Shown piece after piece: positions 9,880-42,070 of a stretch of DNA of 42,070 nucleotides (positions are counted from its first letter, which is position 1; each line of letters begins with the position of its first letter). Made by a program: the position numbers and the translations under genes. The notes below the pieces were generated by a model. It worked only from the letters and a program-made list of their open reading frames with translations. It was not told the DNA's origin and ran no database searches. Where the stretch lies: positions 25,783 through 67,852 of the IMG/VR virus record IMGVR_UViG_3300030380_002405, one strand, 5' to 3'. The DNA is from a virus.

Positions 9880-10208
9880 ATCCATTTACCGATCTTATCT
9901 TTTCATTAACATGGATATTTCTTTTAGTATGGGCCGTTCGTTCTATTATTTCGGGAGCGAGATCTCAGTCTATAAGAGATTATAATGCTGGAACTTGGAC
10001 TACTCAGGTAACAAAGAGAGTTCATCCAGAGATGGAGGGTGTAGAACCTGGTGAACAACTGATGGGAGTAACATTTGAAAAGAAAACGGAATGTGATTTG
10101 GAAGAGTATAGAGATCTTCAAAATCGTATTGCAGAATTAAAACAAGAGTTAGAGGATCCTTGGGATGATGAGGAAGATGAAGATGGAGATGTTGTGGTAA
10201 GAAGATGA
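9876..10208 (+). CDS. DUF2973-like membrane-anchored protein
   Basis: 110 residues. An N-terminal helix ([20 protein letters not shown]) anchors an acidic cytosolic tail. The motif [21 protein letters not shown] resembles the HPE(M/L)...G(D/E)xL core of the cyanobacterial DUF2973 family, and the C-terminus is an acidic coiled segment ([14 protein letters not shown], then DDEEDEDGD). The ATGA overlaps with both the gene before and ndhI after place it in the photosynthesis cassette. Function unknown. Being a cyanobacterial-type family next to ndhI, it may have come from the host. Confidence 0.6.
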
Positions 10209-10747
10209 AAACCGTACTTAATTATCTAAAAAATGTAAAAGATACTGCTAAATATATGCTACAGGGGTTAGAAGTAACCTTTGACCATATGAGAAGGAGA
10301 CCTGTAACCATACAGTATCCTTATGAAAAACTGATACCATCTGAAAGGTATCGTGGACGTATACACTATGAGTTTGATAAGTGTATTGCTTGTGAAGTAT
10401 GTGTTAGAGTTTGTCCAATAAATTTACCAGTCGTTGACTGGGTGATGAACAAGCAAACAAAGAAAAAAGAACTTAGAAATTATTCGATAGATTTTGGAGC
10501 TTGCATATTCTGTGGTAATTGTGTAGAATACTGTCCAACCAACTGTCTATCAATGACAGAAGAATATGAACTATCTACATTTGACAGGCACTCACTTAAC
10601 TATGATAATGTCGCTCTTGGACGATTGCCCACTTCTGTTACAAGTGATCCCTCAGTTAGGGCAATGCGTGAGTTGGCTTACTTACCAAAAGGAGAGATGG
10701 ATCCACATGAAGTCCCCGATAATGAACCCCGTGTAGGTGCAAGATGA
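10205..10747 (+). CDS. ndhI: NAD(P)H-quinone oxidoreductase subunit I (NDH-1 Fe-S subunit)
   Basis: 180 residues that read as cyanobacterial NdhI almost end to end: [38 protein letters not shown], then two [4Fe-4S] motifs C60-x2-C63-x2-C66-x3-C70 ([11 protein letters not shown]) and C100-x2-C103-x2-C106-x3-C110 ([11 protein letters not shown]), then [14 protein letters not shown]. NdhI carries electrons to plastoquinone in NDH-1, which takes electrons from ferredoxin in cyclic flow around PSI. The C-terminal tail is somewhat shorter than host NdhI. The ATGA junctions with the flanking genes indicate one operon. A functional phage NdhI would replace or add to a host subunit. Confidence 0.96.
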
Positions 10748-29699: not shown

Positions 29700-29776
29700 A
29701 GGAATCGAAAGATCGTACCCCTGTGTTAATGTACAGTATCCCATGTCGGGGATGCTATCATCCGCAGGGTTTTTTA
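29700..29776 (+). promoter_or_regulatory. structured leader RNA with terminator-like 3' arm
   Basis: Between the late promoter and the ATG at 29806. An inner stem AGTATCCC/GGGATGCT with loop ATGTCG sits inside an outer CCCTG/CAGGG pairing that is followed by six T. This could fold as a riboregulator or attenuator. No Shine-Dalgarno precedes the ATG. The start of the leader shares a 25-nt segment with 34711-34735. Confidence 0.45.
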
Positions 29777-29805
29777 ATGCCCATGCGAGACAAATAAAAA
29801 CAATC

Positions 29806-30192
29806 ATGTCAATCAAATCAACAATCGCAGCTGCATTTGCTGCACCATTTCTACTTTCTTCAGCTGCTTTTGCTGGTCCTTATGTGAATGTAGAAGCAAA
29901 CGGTTCATATCCTGATGGAGATTACACAGGTGCTACTACAGACGTTGCTGTAGGTTTCGACGGAACAACAAGCGAAGGTAAGGTAGCATACTACATACAA
30001 GGTGGTCCAGCATTCGTTCATACTGAGTCAACTGACGATACTGAGACTGAGTTCTCTGGTAAGGCAGGTGCTTCTGTAGCAATCAACGAAGATCTATCTG
30101 TATATGGTGAGATCTCTGGTATCTCTGCTGAGAAGAATAACGACGACGTTATCAACTACGGTGGTAAGATCGGTGCTAAGTTCGTATTCTGA
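29806..30192 (+). CDS. exported porin-like beta protein
   Basis: 128 residues from ATG 29806 (in-frame ATG 29743 lies in the structured leader). The signal peptide MSIKSTIAAAFAAPFLLSSAAFA ends at AFA-GPY. The mature part alternates hydrophobic and Gly residues in strands, and ends with YGGKIGAKFVF; a C-terminal aromatic (Phe) is typical of outer-membrane beta-barrel proteins. At about 105 mature residues it would make a small barrel or a fragment. A role in the outer membrane of the host, or as a virion-borne protein, is inferred only. Confidence 0.7.
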   Translation: MSIKSTIAAAFAAPFLLSSAAFAGPYVNVEANGSYPDGDYTGATTDVAVGFDGTTSEGKVAYYIQGGPAFVHTESTDDTETEFSGKAGASVAINEDLSVYGEISGISAEKNNDDVINYGGKIGAKFVF

Positions 30193-31285: not shown

Positions 31286-31308
31286 GGGGGTCATTAGACC
31301 CCCTTTTT
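31286..31308 (+). terminator. intrinsic terminator
   Basis: GGGGGTC/GACCCCC perfect 7-bp stem (31286-31292 with 31297-31303), loop ATTA, then a T run (31304-31308). Ends the 30391-31238 unit. Confidence 0.9.
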
Positions 31309-31338: not shown

Positions 31339-31367
31339 TTTACAAGTCTTTATCTTTACTATATAAT
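31339..31367 (+). promoter_or_regulatory. sigma70-type (early) promoter of the Hli array
   Basis: TTTACA (31339-31344), 17-bp spacer, perfect TATAAT (31362-31367). Predicted start near 31374, about 24 nt before ATG 31398; no Shine-Dalgarno is visible. Confidence 0.8.
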
Positions 31368-31397: not shown

Positions 31398-31613
31398 ATG
31401 ACTTCTTCAACTGCCGACAAGTATACAACTACCGAATACGGCAAGCAAAACATGTTTGGTGCAGAAGTAGCACCTTGGGTTGATCAGAACGACAACTATG
31501 AAGGTTATCCTGAAAACGCAGAGAAAACCAATGGTCGTTGGGCTATGATAGGTATCGTGGCACTACTAGGTGCGTATATCACTACTGGTCAAATCATTCC
31601 AGGTGTATTTTAA
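31398..31613 (+). CDS. hli: high-light-inducible protein
   Basis: 71 residues: an N-terminal acidic polar extension, then the Hli helix EKTNGRWAMIGIVALLGAYITTGQIIPGVF with intact E-x-x-N-G-R-x-A-M chlorophyll-binding motif. Hli proteins bind chlorophyll and carotenoid and protect photosystems during PSII repair. First gene behind the early promoter at 31339; ATG 31398 chosen because the longer open frame runs through the promoter. TAATG overlap with the next gene. Confidence 0.93.
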   Translation: MTSSTADKYTTTEYGKQNMFGAEVAPWVDQNDNYEGYPENAEKTNGRWAMIGIVALLGAYITTGQIIPGVF

Positions 31614-31744
31614 TGACTACCATTCCGACATATGATATTCCAGCATCACCAATCCTTCTTCTAGGATTTGCTGGTATTGCGGTAGCACTATTCACGCTTT
31701 ATACAGTTAATAAAGCATATTCAAATTCACCCTTCAGGAGTTGA
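31613..31744 (+). CDS. 43-residue one-helix membrane protein
   Basis: Begins MTTIPTYDIPASP, then one helix (ILLLGFAGIAVALFTLYTV) and a basic tail (NKAYSNSPFRS). Not an Hli protein: no ExxNGR motif. Size and position among Hli genes resemble small photosystem-associated helices, but I cannot name it. Starts at the TAATG overlap with the first hli gene. Confidence 0.7.
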   Translation: MTTIPTYDIPASPILLLGFAGIAVALFTLYTVNKAYSNSPFRS

Positions 31745-31745
31745 T

Positions 31746-31826
31746 ATGAAAACCATGATCCAAACCCTATTGATAGGTACAATTGCAATGGCAGTTGTTT
31801 ATTCACCAACTATTGCATACGTCTAA
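31746..31826 (+). CDS. 26-residue hydrophobic peptide
   Basis: MKTMIQTLLIGTIAMAVVYSPTIAYV, one helix with a short basic start. AGGAG precedes the ATG by 6 bp, a better ribosome site than its neighbours have, and its TAA overlaps the ATG of the next hli gene. Too short for confident homology; the context supports translation. Confidence 0.55.
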   Translation: MKTMIQTLLIGTIAMAVVYSPTIAYV

Positions 31827-31939
31827 TGAACTATTGGAAAAACGCAGAACAACTCAATGGTCGCATGGCGATGATGGGTTTCTTCGCTGCCGTAGTTAAC
31901 TACGGTTTCACAGGCTGGGTAATACCAGGCATCTTTTGA
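31826..31939 (+). CDS. hli: minimal high-light-inducible protein
   Basis: 37 residues, almost only the Hli helix: AEQLNGRMAMMGFFAAVVNYG then TGWVIPGIF. The ExxNGRxAM motif is intact. TAATG overlap with the preceding peptide. A 47-bp gap follows, holding no clear promoter. Confidence 0.88.
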   Translation: MNYWKNAEQLNGRMAMMGFFAAVVNYGFTGWVIPGIF

Positions 31940-31986
31940 CTTAACAGGTCTCTTTAAGCTCTATTCCTATTACAAATCTAAGAACA

Positions 31987-32094
31987 ATGACACCAGAAGC
32001 AGAAAAATTTAACGGTTGGATGGCGATGCTAGGCTTCGTCGCAGCACTCGGTGCTTATGCAACCACAGGACAAATCATTCCAGGTATCTTCTAA
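31987..32094 (+). CDS. hli: minimal Hli protein with Arg-to-Trp change
   Basis: 35 residues: EAEKFNGWMAMLGFVAALGA then TTGQIIPGIF. The chlorophyll-binding motif has the Glu and Asn but Trp in place of Arg, so the usual Glu-Arg ion pair between helices cannot form with its own Arg. Otherwise closely similar to the 31398 helix. TAATG overlap into the next hli gene. Confidence 0.85.
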   Translation: MTPEAEKFNGWMAMLGFVAALGAYATTGQIIPGIF

Positions 32095-32207
32095 TGAATA
32101 ACAAACAAATCTTCCTCAAAGCAAACGGACGTGCAGCAATGATTGGATTCATTGTACTCTGTGCATCATACGCAACAACTGGCAACCTTATTCCTGGTAT
32201 CATCTAA
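32094..32207 (+). CDS. hli: minimal Hli protein lacking the motif Glu
   Basis: 37 residues: MNNKQIFLKANGRAAMIGFI, then ASYATTGNLIPGII. NGRxAM is present but the Glu three residues before the Asn is replaced by Leu. It could pair with partners that keep Glu but lack Arg. TAATG overlap on both sides. Confidence 0.85.
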   Translation: MNNKQIFLKANGRAAMIGFIVLCASYATTGNLIPGII

Positions 32208-32353
32208 TGACAAAGCAAACAAAAACACAAACAGAAGACAAGGTAGATTTTTCTATCGCTGAAAAATGGAATGGCATAGCAGCCATCGTTGGATGTGGAG
32301 CACTCATCGTGTCCTACTCATTCTCAGGTCAAATCATACCAGGTTTTGTATAA
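32207..32353 (+). CDS. hli: Hli protein with Arg-to-Ile change
   Basis: 48 residues: a polar 17-residue leader, then AEKWNGIAAIVGCGALIVSY and FSGQIIPGFV. Glu and Asn retained, Arg replaced by Ile and Met by Ile. The C-terminal GQIIPG motif matches the other array members. TAATG overlap into the next gene. Confidence 0.8.
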   Translation: MTKQTKTQTEDKVDFSIAEKWNGIAAIVGCGALIVSYSFSGQIIPGFV

Positions 32354-32472
32354 TGTCTTGTAGGTTATTTACGATCAAGCGAACTGATCTAATGAAACTG
32401 TTCGTGGTAATAAACTTACCTTGGATAGCAGTTTCTGCTACAGCAGGTTCTTTGATTGGTATTATTACCTAG
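32353..32472 (+). CDS. small one-helix membrane protein
   Basis: 39 residues from ATG 32353 (MSCRLFTIKRTDLMKLFV, then one helix VINLPWIAVSATAGSLIGIIT). ATG 32392 would give only 26 residues. The start overlaps the stop of the preceding hli gene (TAATG), supporting 32353. Not an Hli protein; unknown. Confidence 0.55.
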   Translation: MSCRLFTIKRTDLMKLFVVINLPWIAVSATAGSLIGIIT

Positions 32473-32480
32473 TCTAAAAC

Positions 32481-32510
32481 TTTACATAACTAAATACTTA
32501 CTCGTACAAT
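32481..32510 (+). promoter_or_regulatory. possible sigma70-type promoter
   Basis: TTTACA (32481-32486) and TACAAT (32505-32510) with an 18-bp spacer, 19 bp before ATG 32529. Weaker than the 31339 promoter. Confidence 0.5.
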
Positions 32511-32528
32511 ATTAGCATATCAAAATAA

Positions 32529-32726
32529 ATGAGCGAATTTCAAACCGCAGTCGATACATTCCCAATCTGGAAAGCAGTTCTATGGATATTTTATCCAATG
32601 GTACTGTTAGTTGGATTAGAATTGTTTCTACGTGGTGTTGATGACGATGATGATGATGAGGGTGGTAAAGGAATCAGAATCTTTAAAGAAGAAATGACTC
32701 CAGCATACGCACCAGCAGGATCATGA
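32529..32726 (+). CDS. one-helix membrane protein with poly-Asp tail
   Basis: 65 residues: SEFQTAVDTFPIWKAVLW, a hydrophobic helix (IFYPMVLLVGLELFL), then RGVDDDDDDEGGKGIRI. The six-Asp run could coordinate cations or is just an acidic cytosolic tail. Conserved-looking cyanophage gene of unknown function, ATGA overlap with the next hli gene. Confidence 0.65.
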   Translation: MSEFQTAVDTFPIWKAVLWIFYPMVLLVGLELFLRGVDDDDDDEGGKGIRIFKEEMTPAYAPAGS

Positions 32727-32827
32727 TTGATTATTCGCATCATTATTGGAGATATGCAGAACGTTGGAATGGCCGTCTCGCAATGGTCGGAGTACTTATC
32801 TTAATTCTACAAGCATGTATCAACTAA
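32723..32827 (+). CDS. hli: minimal high-light-inducible protein
   Basis: 34 residues: MIDYSHHYWRYAERWNGRLAMVGVLILILQACIN. The ExxNGRxAM motif is intact and the sequence is closest to host-type single-helix Hli, without the GQIIPG end of the others. ATGA overlap upstream; 13-bp overlap with the next peptide. Confidence 0.9.
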   Translation: MIDYSHHYWRYAERWNGRLAMVGVLILILQACIN

Positions 32828-32889
32828 TTTTCGTTGCAGCAGTAGCAGCAACAGCGTATACAAACGGATTATCATTCGTTTTTAATTAA
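32815..32889 (+). CDS. 24-residue hydrophobic peptide
   Basis: MYQLIFVAAVAATAYTNGLSFVFN, starting inside the preceding hli gene. Could be a short membrane peptide or a chance frame. No Shine-Dalgarno is visible; the overlap style and hydrophobicity mildly support it. Confidence 0.4.
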   Translation: MYQLIFVAAVAATAYTNGLSFVFN

Positions 32890-32916
32890 CCCTATAGCTG
32901 AGGAGCACAAGCTTAA

Positions 32917-33030
32917 ATGACTCGTTTAAAATCAAAATTTTTAGAAATTCCACCGTCAGCACATGGCATTTTGGAATTCGCATTCTTTTGTGGAGTAGGT
33001 TTCACAGCAGGTTCACTAGGTTTAATATGA
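32917..33030 (+). CDS. 37-residue one-helix membrane protein
   Basis: MTRLKSKFLEIPPSAHGILE, then a hydrophobic helix (FAFFCGVGFTAGSLGLI). GAGGAG lies about 14 bp upstream of the ATG. Unrecognised. ATGA overlap with the next gene. Confidence 0.55.
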   Translation: MTRLKSKFLEIPPSAHGILEFAFFCGVGFTAGSLGLI

Positions 33031-33134
33031 TTAACTTTGCAGAAATTTATCAAATGGTATTCATGGTAGTAGTCGGGGTTGTAATGACAACTACCATGTT
33101 TATGACTATGATGGCTTACATGATGGATGATTAA
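33027..33134 (+). CDS. 35-residue Met-rich membrane protein
   Basis: MINFAEIYQMVFMVVVGVVM then TTTMFMTMMAYMMDD: ten methionines in 35 residues, one long hydrophobic helix. Unknown. The unusual Met content may reflect tight helix packing or AT-rich codon drift. Overlaps on both sides (ATGA, TAATG). Confidence 0.6.
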   Translation: MINFAEIYQMVFMVVVGVVMTTTMFMTMMAYMMDD

Positions 33135-34234: not shown

Positions 34235-34408
34235 ATGTCTTGTAACGATCACGATAAAATGAATCCTGTGATTCATGCTTTATACCATGTAAAAGAATGG
34301 GATAAGAAAATGGCAAAGAAAATTCAGGACAAGTTTAACTTGACTGATTATCAAATGCTTTGCCTTGCATTCGGAAAAGGATTGATCATAGGAGTAATTT
34401 TACTTTAA
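34235..34408 (+). CDS. 57-residue small protein with hydrophobic end
   Basis: Starts MSCNDHDKMNPVIHALYHVK and has a basic middle (EWDKKMAKKIQDKFN), ending in a short helix (MLCLAFGKGLIIGVILL). Its TAA overlaps the NifU-like ATG. Unknown. Confidence 0.55.
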   Translation: MSCNDHDKMNPVIHALYHVKEWDKKMAKKIQDKFNLTDYQMLCLAFGKGLIIGVILL

Positions 34409-34644
34409 TGGAATTAACCGAAGAGAATGTAATTAAAGTTCTAGAAGAACTTGTTCCTTATATTGAAGCTGATGGTGGATCCCTTCAGTTTGTTGAGATA
34501 GAACATGAAACTAATTTTGTTAAAGTTAGATTGGGTGGTGCATGTGAGACATGTGCTATGAGTGTTATGACTTTGAAGCAGGGTATAGAAAGCAAATTGA
34601 TGCATGAGATACCCGATTGTTATGGAGTTGTGCAGGTTCTCTAA
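34408..34644 (+). CDS. NifU-like Fe-S scaffold domain protein
   Basis: 78 residues from ATG 34408. EELVPYIEADGGSLQFVEIE, VKVRLGGACETCAMSVMTLKQGIES and the conserved CxxC (CETC) match the NifU C-terminal domain, which assembles and passes on [4Fe-4S] or [2Fe-2S] clusters. In this phage the visible Fe-S clients are NdhI (two clusters) and the RfbH-type dehydratase; a link is inferred. TAATG overlap upstream. Confidence 0.88.
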   Translation: MELTEENVIKVLEELVPYIEADGGSLQFVEIEHETNFVKVRLGGACETCAMSVMTLKQGIESKLMHEIPDCYGVVQVL

Positions 34645-36592: not shown

Positions 36593-37054
36593 ATGGGAGC
36601 GATGGTTCCACCGTCAAGGAAGAGTTGTTACAATTTCCGAGTGGTGAAGATAGACAAAGTGGTGGACGGGGACACGATAGATGTGACCATCGATCTTGGA
36701 TTCGATTTATACAAGAAAGAACGGGTAAGGATTGCGGGAGTTGATACTCCAGAGAAAAGAACTAGAGATCTGGAAGAGAAAGCATTAGGACTTGATGCTA
36801 CTTATTGGATGAAGAAACAACTAGAGGATACTATTGCAGGTGATGAAGAACTCATTATTAGAACTGAACTTAAGGGTGGCACTGGGAAGTATGGTAGGCT
36901 TCTTGGTTGGCTCTATGTTGGCGATGATACTATTTCCTTAAACGAACAAATGATTACGGAGGGTTATGCGTGGGCATATGATGGTGGCACTAAACAGAAA
37001 AATTTTGAGGAGTTACGTGAAATTAGGCGTTCGTTTGGGACACTGGTTGAGTAA
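36593..37054 (+). CDS. staphylococcal-nuclease-like (thermonuclease) protein
   Basis: 153 residues. VVDGDTIDVTIDLGFD carries the Ca-binding Asp residues; ERVRIAGVDTPEKRT the Arg and the D-T-P-E motif; YGRLLGWLYVGD and EGYAWAYDGG the later SNase strands. There is no signal peptide, so it acts in the cytoplasm or virion. Nucleic-acid degradation is inferred from family. Start ATG 36593 follows GGAG; ATG 36602 is also possible. Confidence 0.87.
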   Translation: MGAMVPPSRKSCYNFRVVKIDKVVDGDTIDVTIDLGFDLYKKERVRIAGVDTPEKRTRDLEEKALGLDATYWMKKQLEDTIAGDEELIIRTELKGGTGKYGRLLGWLYVGDDTISLNEQMITEGYAWAYDGGTKQKNFEELREIRRSFGTLVE

Positions 37055-41089: not shown

Positions 41090-42070
41090 ATGACAACTCT
41101 TCAAAAACGTGAACAAGGACTCCTATCTGGATGGTCCGAGTTCTGCGAGTGGGTTACAAGTACTAACAACCGCATCTATGTTGGTTGGTTCGGTGTCTTG
41201 ATGATCCCTTGCCTATTAGCAGCAGCAACATGTTTCATTGTTGCATTCATCGCTGCACCTCCTGTCGATATCGACGGAATCCGTGAACCAGTTGCTGGTT
41301 CATTCATGTATGGTAACAACATCATCTCTGGTGCTGTAGTTCCATCATCAAACGCAATCGGTTTACACTTCTACCCAATCTGGGAAGCTGCTAATTTAGA
41401 TGAGTGGCTTTACAACGGTGGTCCTTACCAGTTGGTAATCTTCCACTTCCTTATTGGAATCTCAGCATACATGGGAAGACAGTGGGAACTATCATACCGT
41501 TTAGGTATGCGTCCTTGGATCTGTGTTGCATACTCTGCACCAGTATCTGCTGCTTTCGCAGTATTCCTTGTATACCCATTCGGTCAGGGTTCATTCTCAG
41601 ACGGAATGCCTTTAGGTATCTCAGGAACATTCAACTTCATGTTCGTATTCCAAGCAGAACATAACATCCTTATGCACCCATTCCATATGGCAGGTGTTGC
41701 AGGTATGTTCGGTGGAGCATTGTTCTCTGCTATGCACGGTTCTCTTGTTACATCTTCACTTATCCGTGAAACCACTGGTCTAGATTCTCAGAACTATGGC
41801 TATAAATTTGGACAGGAAGAAGAAACATACAACATTGTTGCTGCTCACGGTTATTTTGGTCGCCTTATCTTCCAATATGCATCGTTCAACAACAGTCGTT
41901 CTCTTCACTTTTTCTTAGCATCTTGGCCTGTTATTTGTGTATGGTTAACCTCTATGGGTATCTGCACAATGGCATTCAACCTTAACGGTTTCAACTTCAA
42001 CCAATCTGTCGTAGACGGATCAGGTAAGGTTGTTCCTACTTGGGGTGATGTTCTTAACAGGGCAAACTTG
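41090..42070 (+). CDS. psbA: photosystem II D1 protein (incomplete at right edge)
   Basis: Starts [20 protein letters not shown] and is in frame to the last base (327 codons), so about 30 C-terminal residues lie outside the window. Full D1 features are visible: [52 protein letters not shown], the [18 protein letters not shown] region with donor-side His, and [15 protein letters not shown] near QB. Phage D1 replaces the fast-turnover host D1 during infection. Driven by the sigma70-type promoter at 40921. Confidence 0.98.

Follow-up and report, generated by a model that had tools for sequence, protein, structure and literature searches.

Organization of the hli array

The window, the whole stretch of 42,070 nucleotides that was analysed, is part of a 67,852-base virus record similar to the cyanomyovirus P-SSM2 and to single-cell marine viruses. 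Between positions 31398 and 33134 of the window lie six Hli ORFs encoding 71, 37, 35, 37, 48 and 34 amino acids (Hli A to Hli F) and seven other tiny ORFs, all on the plus strand. The whole record contains six Hli genes. The sequence-only reading had proposed six Hli proteins of 34 to 71 residues; all were found at the positions it gave, all match the phage Hli family phrog_178 (E values from 5e-26 to 5e-7), and each of them shows a single hydrophobic stretch.

The complete ExxNxR motif is present in three of the six, as AEKTNGR in Hli A (31398..31613, 71 aa, with a long N-terminus, E value 5e-26), AEQLNGR in Hli B (31826..31939, 37 aa) and AERWNGR in Hli F (32723..32827, 34 aa, E value 5e-7). 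Hli F also scored above the cut-off of the Pfam model Chloroa_b-bind; it is without the C-terminal TGQIIPG-type end common to the other five. The remaining three are Hli homologues in which the motif is incomplete. Hli C (31987..32094, 35 aa, E value 1e-19) has Trp for Arg (E..NGW), Hli D (32094..32207, 37 aa, E value 2e-15) has Leu for Glu and keeps the Arg (L..NGR, as LKANGR), and Hli E (32207..32353, 48 aa, E value 5e-14) has Ile for Arg and keeps the Glu (E..NGI). These residues had been read correctly from the sequence before.

A terminator-like hairpin (31286..31303, plus strand, GGGGGTCATTAGACCCCC followed by TTTTT) closes the preceding unit. Just 5' of Hli A is a sigma-70-type promoter, TTTACA-17-TATAAT (31339..31367, plus strand), with 11 of 12 consensus matches. 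A promoter with at least 10 of 12 matches was found upstream of A in 110 of the 126 related arrays with enough upstream sequence, as compared to 67 of 630 shuffled controls. A second promoter-like site, TTTACA-18-TACAAT with 10 of 12 matches, is located at 32481..32510 on the same strand. Four pairs of neighbouring ORFs are joined by one-base overlaps of the form TAATG, namely A and a 43-aa ORF, C and D, D and E, and E and a 39-aa ORF. Such overlaps are typical of translational coupling.

The 43-aa ORF (31613..31744, phrog_14199), which starts on the TAATG of A, had a pN/pS of 0.13 over 69 loci, and the 39-aa ORF (32353..32472, phrog_37906), which starts on that of E, 0.37 over 85 loci. Both are of the one-helix type, as is a 37-aa ORF at 32917..33030 (phrog_17067, pN/pS 0.21). 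A 26-aa hydrophobic ORF (31746..31826) gave 0.31 over 36 loci, and a 65-aa ORF whose product has a single hydrophobic stretch and ends in an acidic tail (32529..32726, phrog_7843) also gave 0.31. The values were 0.14 over 40 loci for a 24-aa hydrophobic ORF that overlaps the 3' end of F (32815..32889), and 0.16 over 36 loci for a Met-rich hydrophobic ORF of about 34-35 aa (33027..33134). All ORFs of the array are present in relatives, and because they are conserved with a pN/pS of 0.13 to 0.37, they are real genes under purifying selection. At least six tiny one-helix proteins had been claimed; at least seven further tiny ORFs exist and are conserved, while their one-helix nature was judged by eye, by which they would be one-helix membrane proteins. 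Searches of NCBIfam and Pfam gave no identity for these non-Hli ORFs. A search for a natural fusion of two Hli domains found none.

The array as such is already known. The hli clusters of P-SSM2 and P-SSM7 have the gene order of the window; orthologues of A to E occur in both and that of F in P-SSM2, so that P-SSM2 has all six hli genes and P-SSM7 five. The orthologues carry the identical NGW, L..NGR and NGI residues. In P-SSM2 the genes are hli03 (three), hli04, hli05 and hli06; the records of both phages annotate only hli03 to hli06, and the motif losses are unmentioned there. The hli genes of phages are counted in reviews (PMC2984593, PMC10452541). The literature searched, which included few subscription papers, made no mention of phage Hlis that lack the Arg or the Glu.

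Several other genes were recognized elsewhere in the window. A 180-aa protein with two 4Fe-4S sites (10205-10747) resembles the NDH subunit NdhI, and copies of about 90% identity occur in several single-cell marine viruses. A cyanophage outer-membrane beta-barrel protein (29743-30192, PF24653), a protein with a NifU-like domain (34393-34644, PF01106) and a staphylococcal-nuclease-like protein (36593-37054, PF00565) are also encoded, and phage psbA is found at 41090.

Conservation of the motif residues in the Hli families

The ExxNxR motif has been described as a probable dimerisation zipper, with at least four chlorophylls and two carotenoids bound per dimer (PMC8617258). According to a survey (PMC3020630), conservation of the motif's Glu and Arg is ubiquitous in the extended LHC superfamily. 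Hli A, Hli E, two DNA patterns designed for D and an E alignment served to gather related loci from IMG/VR, and further sequences were taken from isolate phages and Prochlorococcus genomes. Profile models with the three motif columns masked were used to assign the Hli ORFs to families A to E; the residue counts given below are therefore not built into the families.

The canonical combination of Glu, Asn and Arg was present in 137 of 142 distinct sequences of family A and in all 161 of family B. All 75 distinct cyanophage sequences of family C had Glu, Asn and Trp. In the viral D family the Arg was kept in 111 of 111 distinct sequences, while the Glu column contained Leu (49), Glu (21), Phe (14), Val (14), Gln (7), Ile (3) and Thr (3), the Glu thus being replaced in 90. 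The E family showed the opposite pattern: Glu and Asn were present in all 147 distinct sequences, and the Arg column contained Arg (84), Ile (35), Gln (14), Ala (7), Tyr (4), Trp (2) and Leu (1), with Arg replaced in 63; a few of the last of these Arg-less counts are host loci (L473-L477). The same residues were kept in the hosts, where D had Arg in 14 of 14 cases and the protein in the E slot had Glu in 39 of 39.

Two further features of these families were observed. The Asn that serves as chlorophyll ligand is often replaced by Gln, Ile or Val in family D (88 of 111 distinct sequences). The Arg-less E proteins (those with Ile, Tyr, Ala or Leu and some with Gln) mostly have Cys after the second Gly (GC), and all Arg-bearing E proteins beside D have Ile, Leu or Val.

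Hli C had been counted among the complementary losses, and for this protein the claim was not supported. C occurs in the majority of marine cyanophages, whether D is present or not, in many viruses in the absence of both D and E, and as the single Hli in the genome of the podovirus P-SSP7, where the C orthologue HliP has NGW and, unlike in the window, D and E are missing. Since C is Arg-less in these viruses too, it cannot depend on a Glu-less phage partner, and a dependence of C on D was rejected. Judged from these sequences, C is a separate phage-wide Trp variant that has no need for D, and its Trp must act either in a homodimer or together with an Hlip of the host.

Dependence of the Arg loss in E on the presence of D

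Among the arrays with a visible neighbourhood, the Arg in the E slot was lost in 142 of 175 that contain D and in none of 88 that do not. Pagel's test on a tree made without D gave a likelihood ratio of 34.7 (p 5e-7; p 2e-7 for phages alone), and a tree made only from A, B and C gave a ratio of 115, as compared to a maximum of 31 in 60 simulations under independence. These tree-based tests support a dependence of the Arg loss in E on the presence of D. D and the Arg-less E were coupled by TAATG in 190 of 192 viral loci and in 36 of 36 host loci.

The combinations found in phages were Leu in D with Ile or Gln in E; Phe, Val or Ile with Gln; Thr with Tyr; and Gln with Ala or Gln. Each of the Arg-loss states of E (Ile, Gln, Ala, Tyr and Leu) was found beside D. 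A D protein that keeps its Glu (EIGR, EVGR) stood beside a canonical E in all phage cases, and in the IGR subfamily of D every phage pair seen combined either Q-IGR with NGA or NGQ, or E-IGR with NGR. About ten distinct phage pairs, for example that of P-TIM40, have a Glu-less D (Val or Ile) beside an Arg-bearing E. In Prochlorococcus D keeps its Glu (EIGR) beside an Arg-less E (NGY or NGL), and one host genome (L479) combines EIGR with NGR.

Both half-way states therefore exist, one with Arg lost and Glu kept in the hosts and one with Glu lost and Arg kept in phages like P-TIM40. Since the host D keeps its Glu beside an Arg-less E, the two losses are not strictly coupled. Because both half-way states occur, the test that set the loss of Glu directly against the loss of Arg, based on few independent events, gave no more than a suggestive result (p 0.06 for phages, 0.10 once hosts were added). 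Phylogenetically independent pairs were all concordant but too few for significance. On a tree of the E proteins alone Arg was lost only about four times, which is too few for a sign test, and trees that include E gave about 4-7 Arg-loss events.

The D-E module of some Prochlorococcus single cells (L473-L487, L170-L202) resembles that of the phages in that D is coupled by TAATG to an Arg-less E (NGY or NGL); unlike the D of the window, the host protein keeps the Glu and has Ile for Asn. Up to seven copies of the module are present in one genome (G060). Of the 61 genomes of the family that were sampled, just 3 have D.

Discussion

The residue patterns suggest that D and E pair with each other as a dedicated Hli heterodimer that a single Glu-Arg bridge holds together, a reading to which we assign a probability of about 0.58. 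In LHCII a Glu-Arg crossing connects helices 1 and 3. In the D-E pair the crossed helices would be joined in a similar way, by the Glu of E and the Arg of D. At the second crossing the Leu of D would meet the Ile of E in the window, an uncharged contact, so that neither protein should be able to form a full homodimer with two bridges. With the Glu of D kept or lost and the Arg of E kept or lost there are four states, and D has its Arg and E its Glu in every one of them, as is expected of a heterodimer in which one bridge is essential and the other dispensable. The idea that complementary losses point to heterodimers is supported for the Glu-less D and the Arg-less E, each of which keeps one residue of the pair invariant, D its Arg and E its Glu.

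The word "obligate", which had been part of that idea, was not supported; the host D keeps its Glu beside an Arg-less E and some phages combine a Glu-less D with a canonical E. A stricter version, which we hold only tentatively, would have D and E form an obligate asymmetric heterodimer, in which the universal Glu-Arg zipper of the LHC superfamily is split over two co-translated chains with one bridge and one uncharged crossing. This state would have been reached more than once, by way of an early Arg loss in one line and an early Glu loss in another.

D and E share the array promoter and overlap by TAATG, both observed in the sequence, and are likely expressed from that promoter. The pair would be asymmetric and, since D has lost the Glu that serves as a ligand, would hold fewer chlorophylls than the four found in an ordinary dimer of Hlips. 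It may serve as a photoprotective chlorophyll holder in photosystem II maintenance, like the host Hlips, a role suggested by these and by the phage psbA at 41090.

Part of the signal could come from the joint movement of D and E, which overlap by one base. It is somewhat unlikely that they are nothing but a linked cassette whose losses are independent and whose members each pair with canonical Hlis (A, B or those of the host), the correlation being due to shared ancestry. The small number of Arg-loss events on trees including E and the Glu kept in the host D would agree with this. Linkage alone, however, does not predict which residue goes, whereas D never loses its Arg and E never loses its Glu while the other residue of each varies freely, and several different residues have replaced the Arg, each beside D. 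Another explanation, which we consider unlikely, is that the forms lacking Glu or Arg have given up chlorophyll binding and have only a structural or regulatory function, as one-helix proteins docked to subunits of the photosystems. In LIL3, pigment binding is lost when the Asn of the motif is replaced (PMC8617258), and many D proteins have lost this Asn as well. Against this, E keeps both Glu and Asn in all sequences, the D of the window keeps its Asn, and selection retains exactly one complementary Glu-Arg pair.

That D is the partner of C and not of E appears very unlikely, although C is Arg-less, lies directly 5' of D, is coupled to it by TAATG in the window and is nearly always present; in some viruses D has no adjoining E, which speaks against the D-E pair, and C still stands beside such a D. 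C is, however, equally Arg-less where D is missing, as in P-SSP7 with its sole Hli, and since it never varies it shows no sign of dependence on D.

A heterodimer of D and E would not be the first among Hlips, and the earlier contrast with "the usual homodimers" was not quite right. The Hlips of Synechocystis switch between homo- and heterodimers, the latter being HliC-HliD, HliA-HliC and HliB-HliC, and pairs of the HliC-HliD type have a role in photosystem II assembly and chlorophyll handling (PMC12142464). Like the proposed D-E pair they bring together one-helix proteins of unequal length, HliC being the shorter; for D and E, co-evolution and a coupled arrangement of the genes were observed. 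The Synechocystis proteins share the chlorophyll-binding motif, and HliC and HliD can each form homodimers, whereas D and E each have lost one motif residue and their genes overlap by one base. In plants and algae OHP1-OHP2 with HCF244 has been described as the homologue of the Ycf39-HliD/HliC complex (PMC12142464) and is eukaryotic, unlike the D-E pair of the phages. Hli heterodimers as such are already known; the D-E pair would go a step beyond them, with each chain lacking one half of the zipper.

A naturally split Glu-Arg pair, if true, would show a route from a symmetric Hlip dimer to an asymmetric heterodimer, which is the step behind helices 1 and 3 of the LHC proteins. It would also offer a testable division of labour for the phage hli genes, whose individual roles remained unclear.
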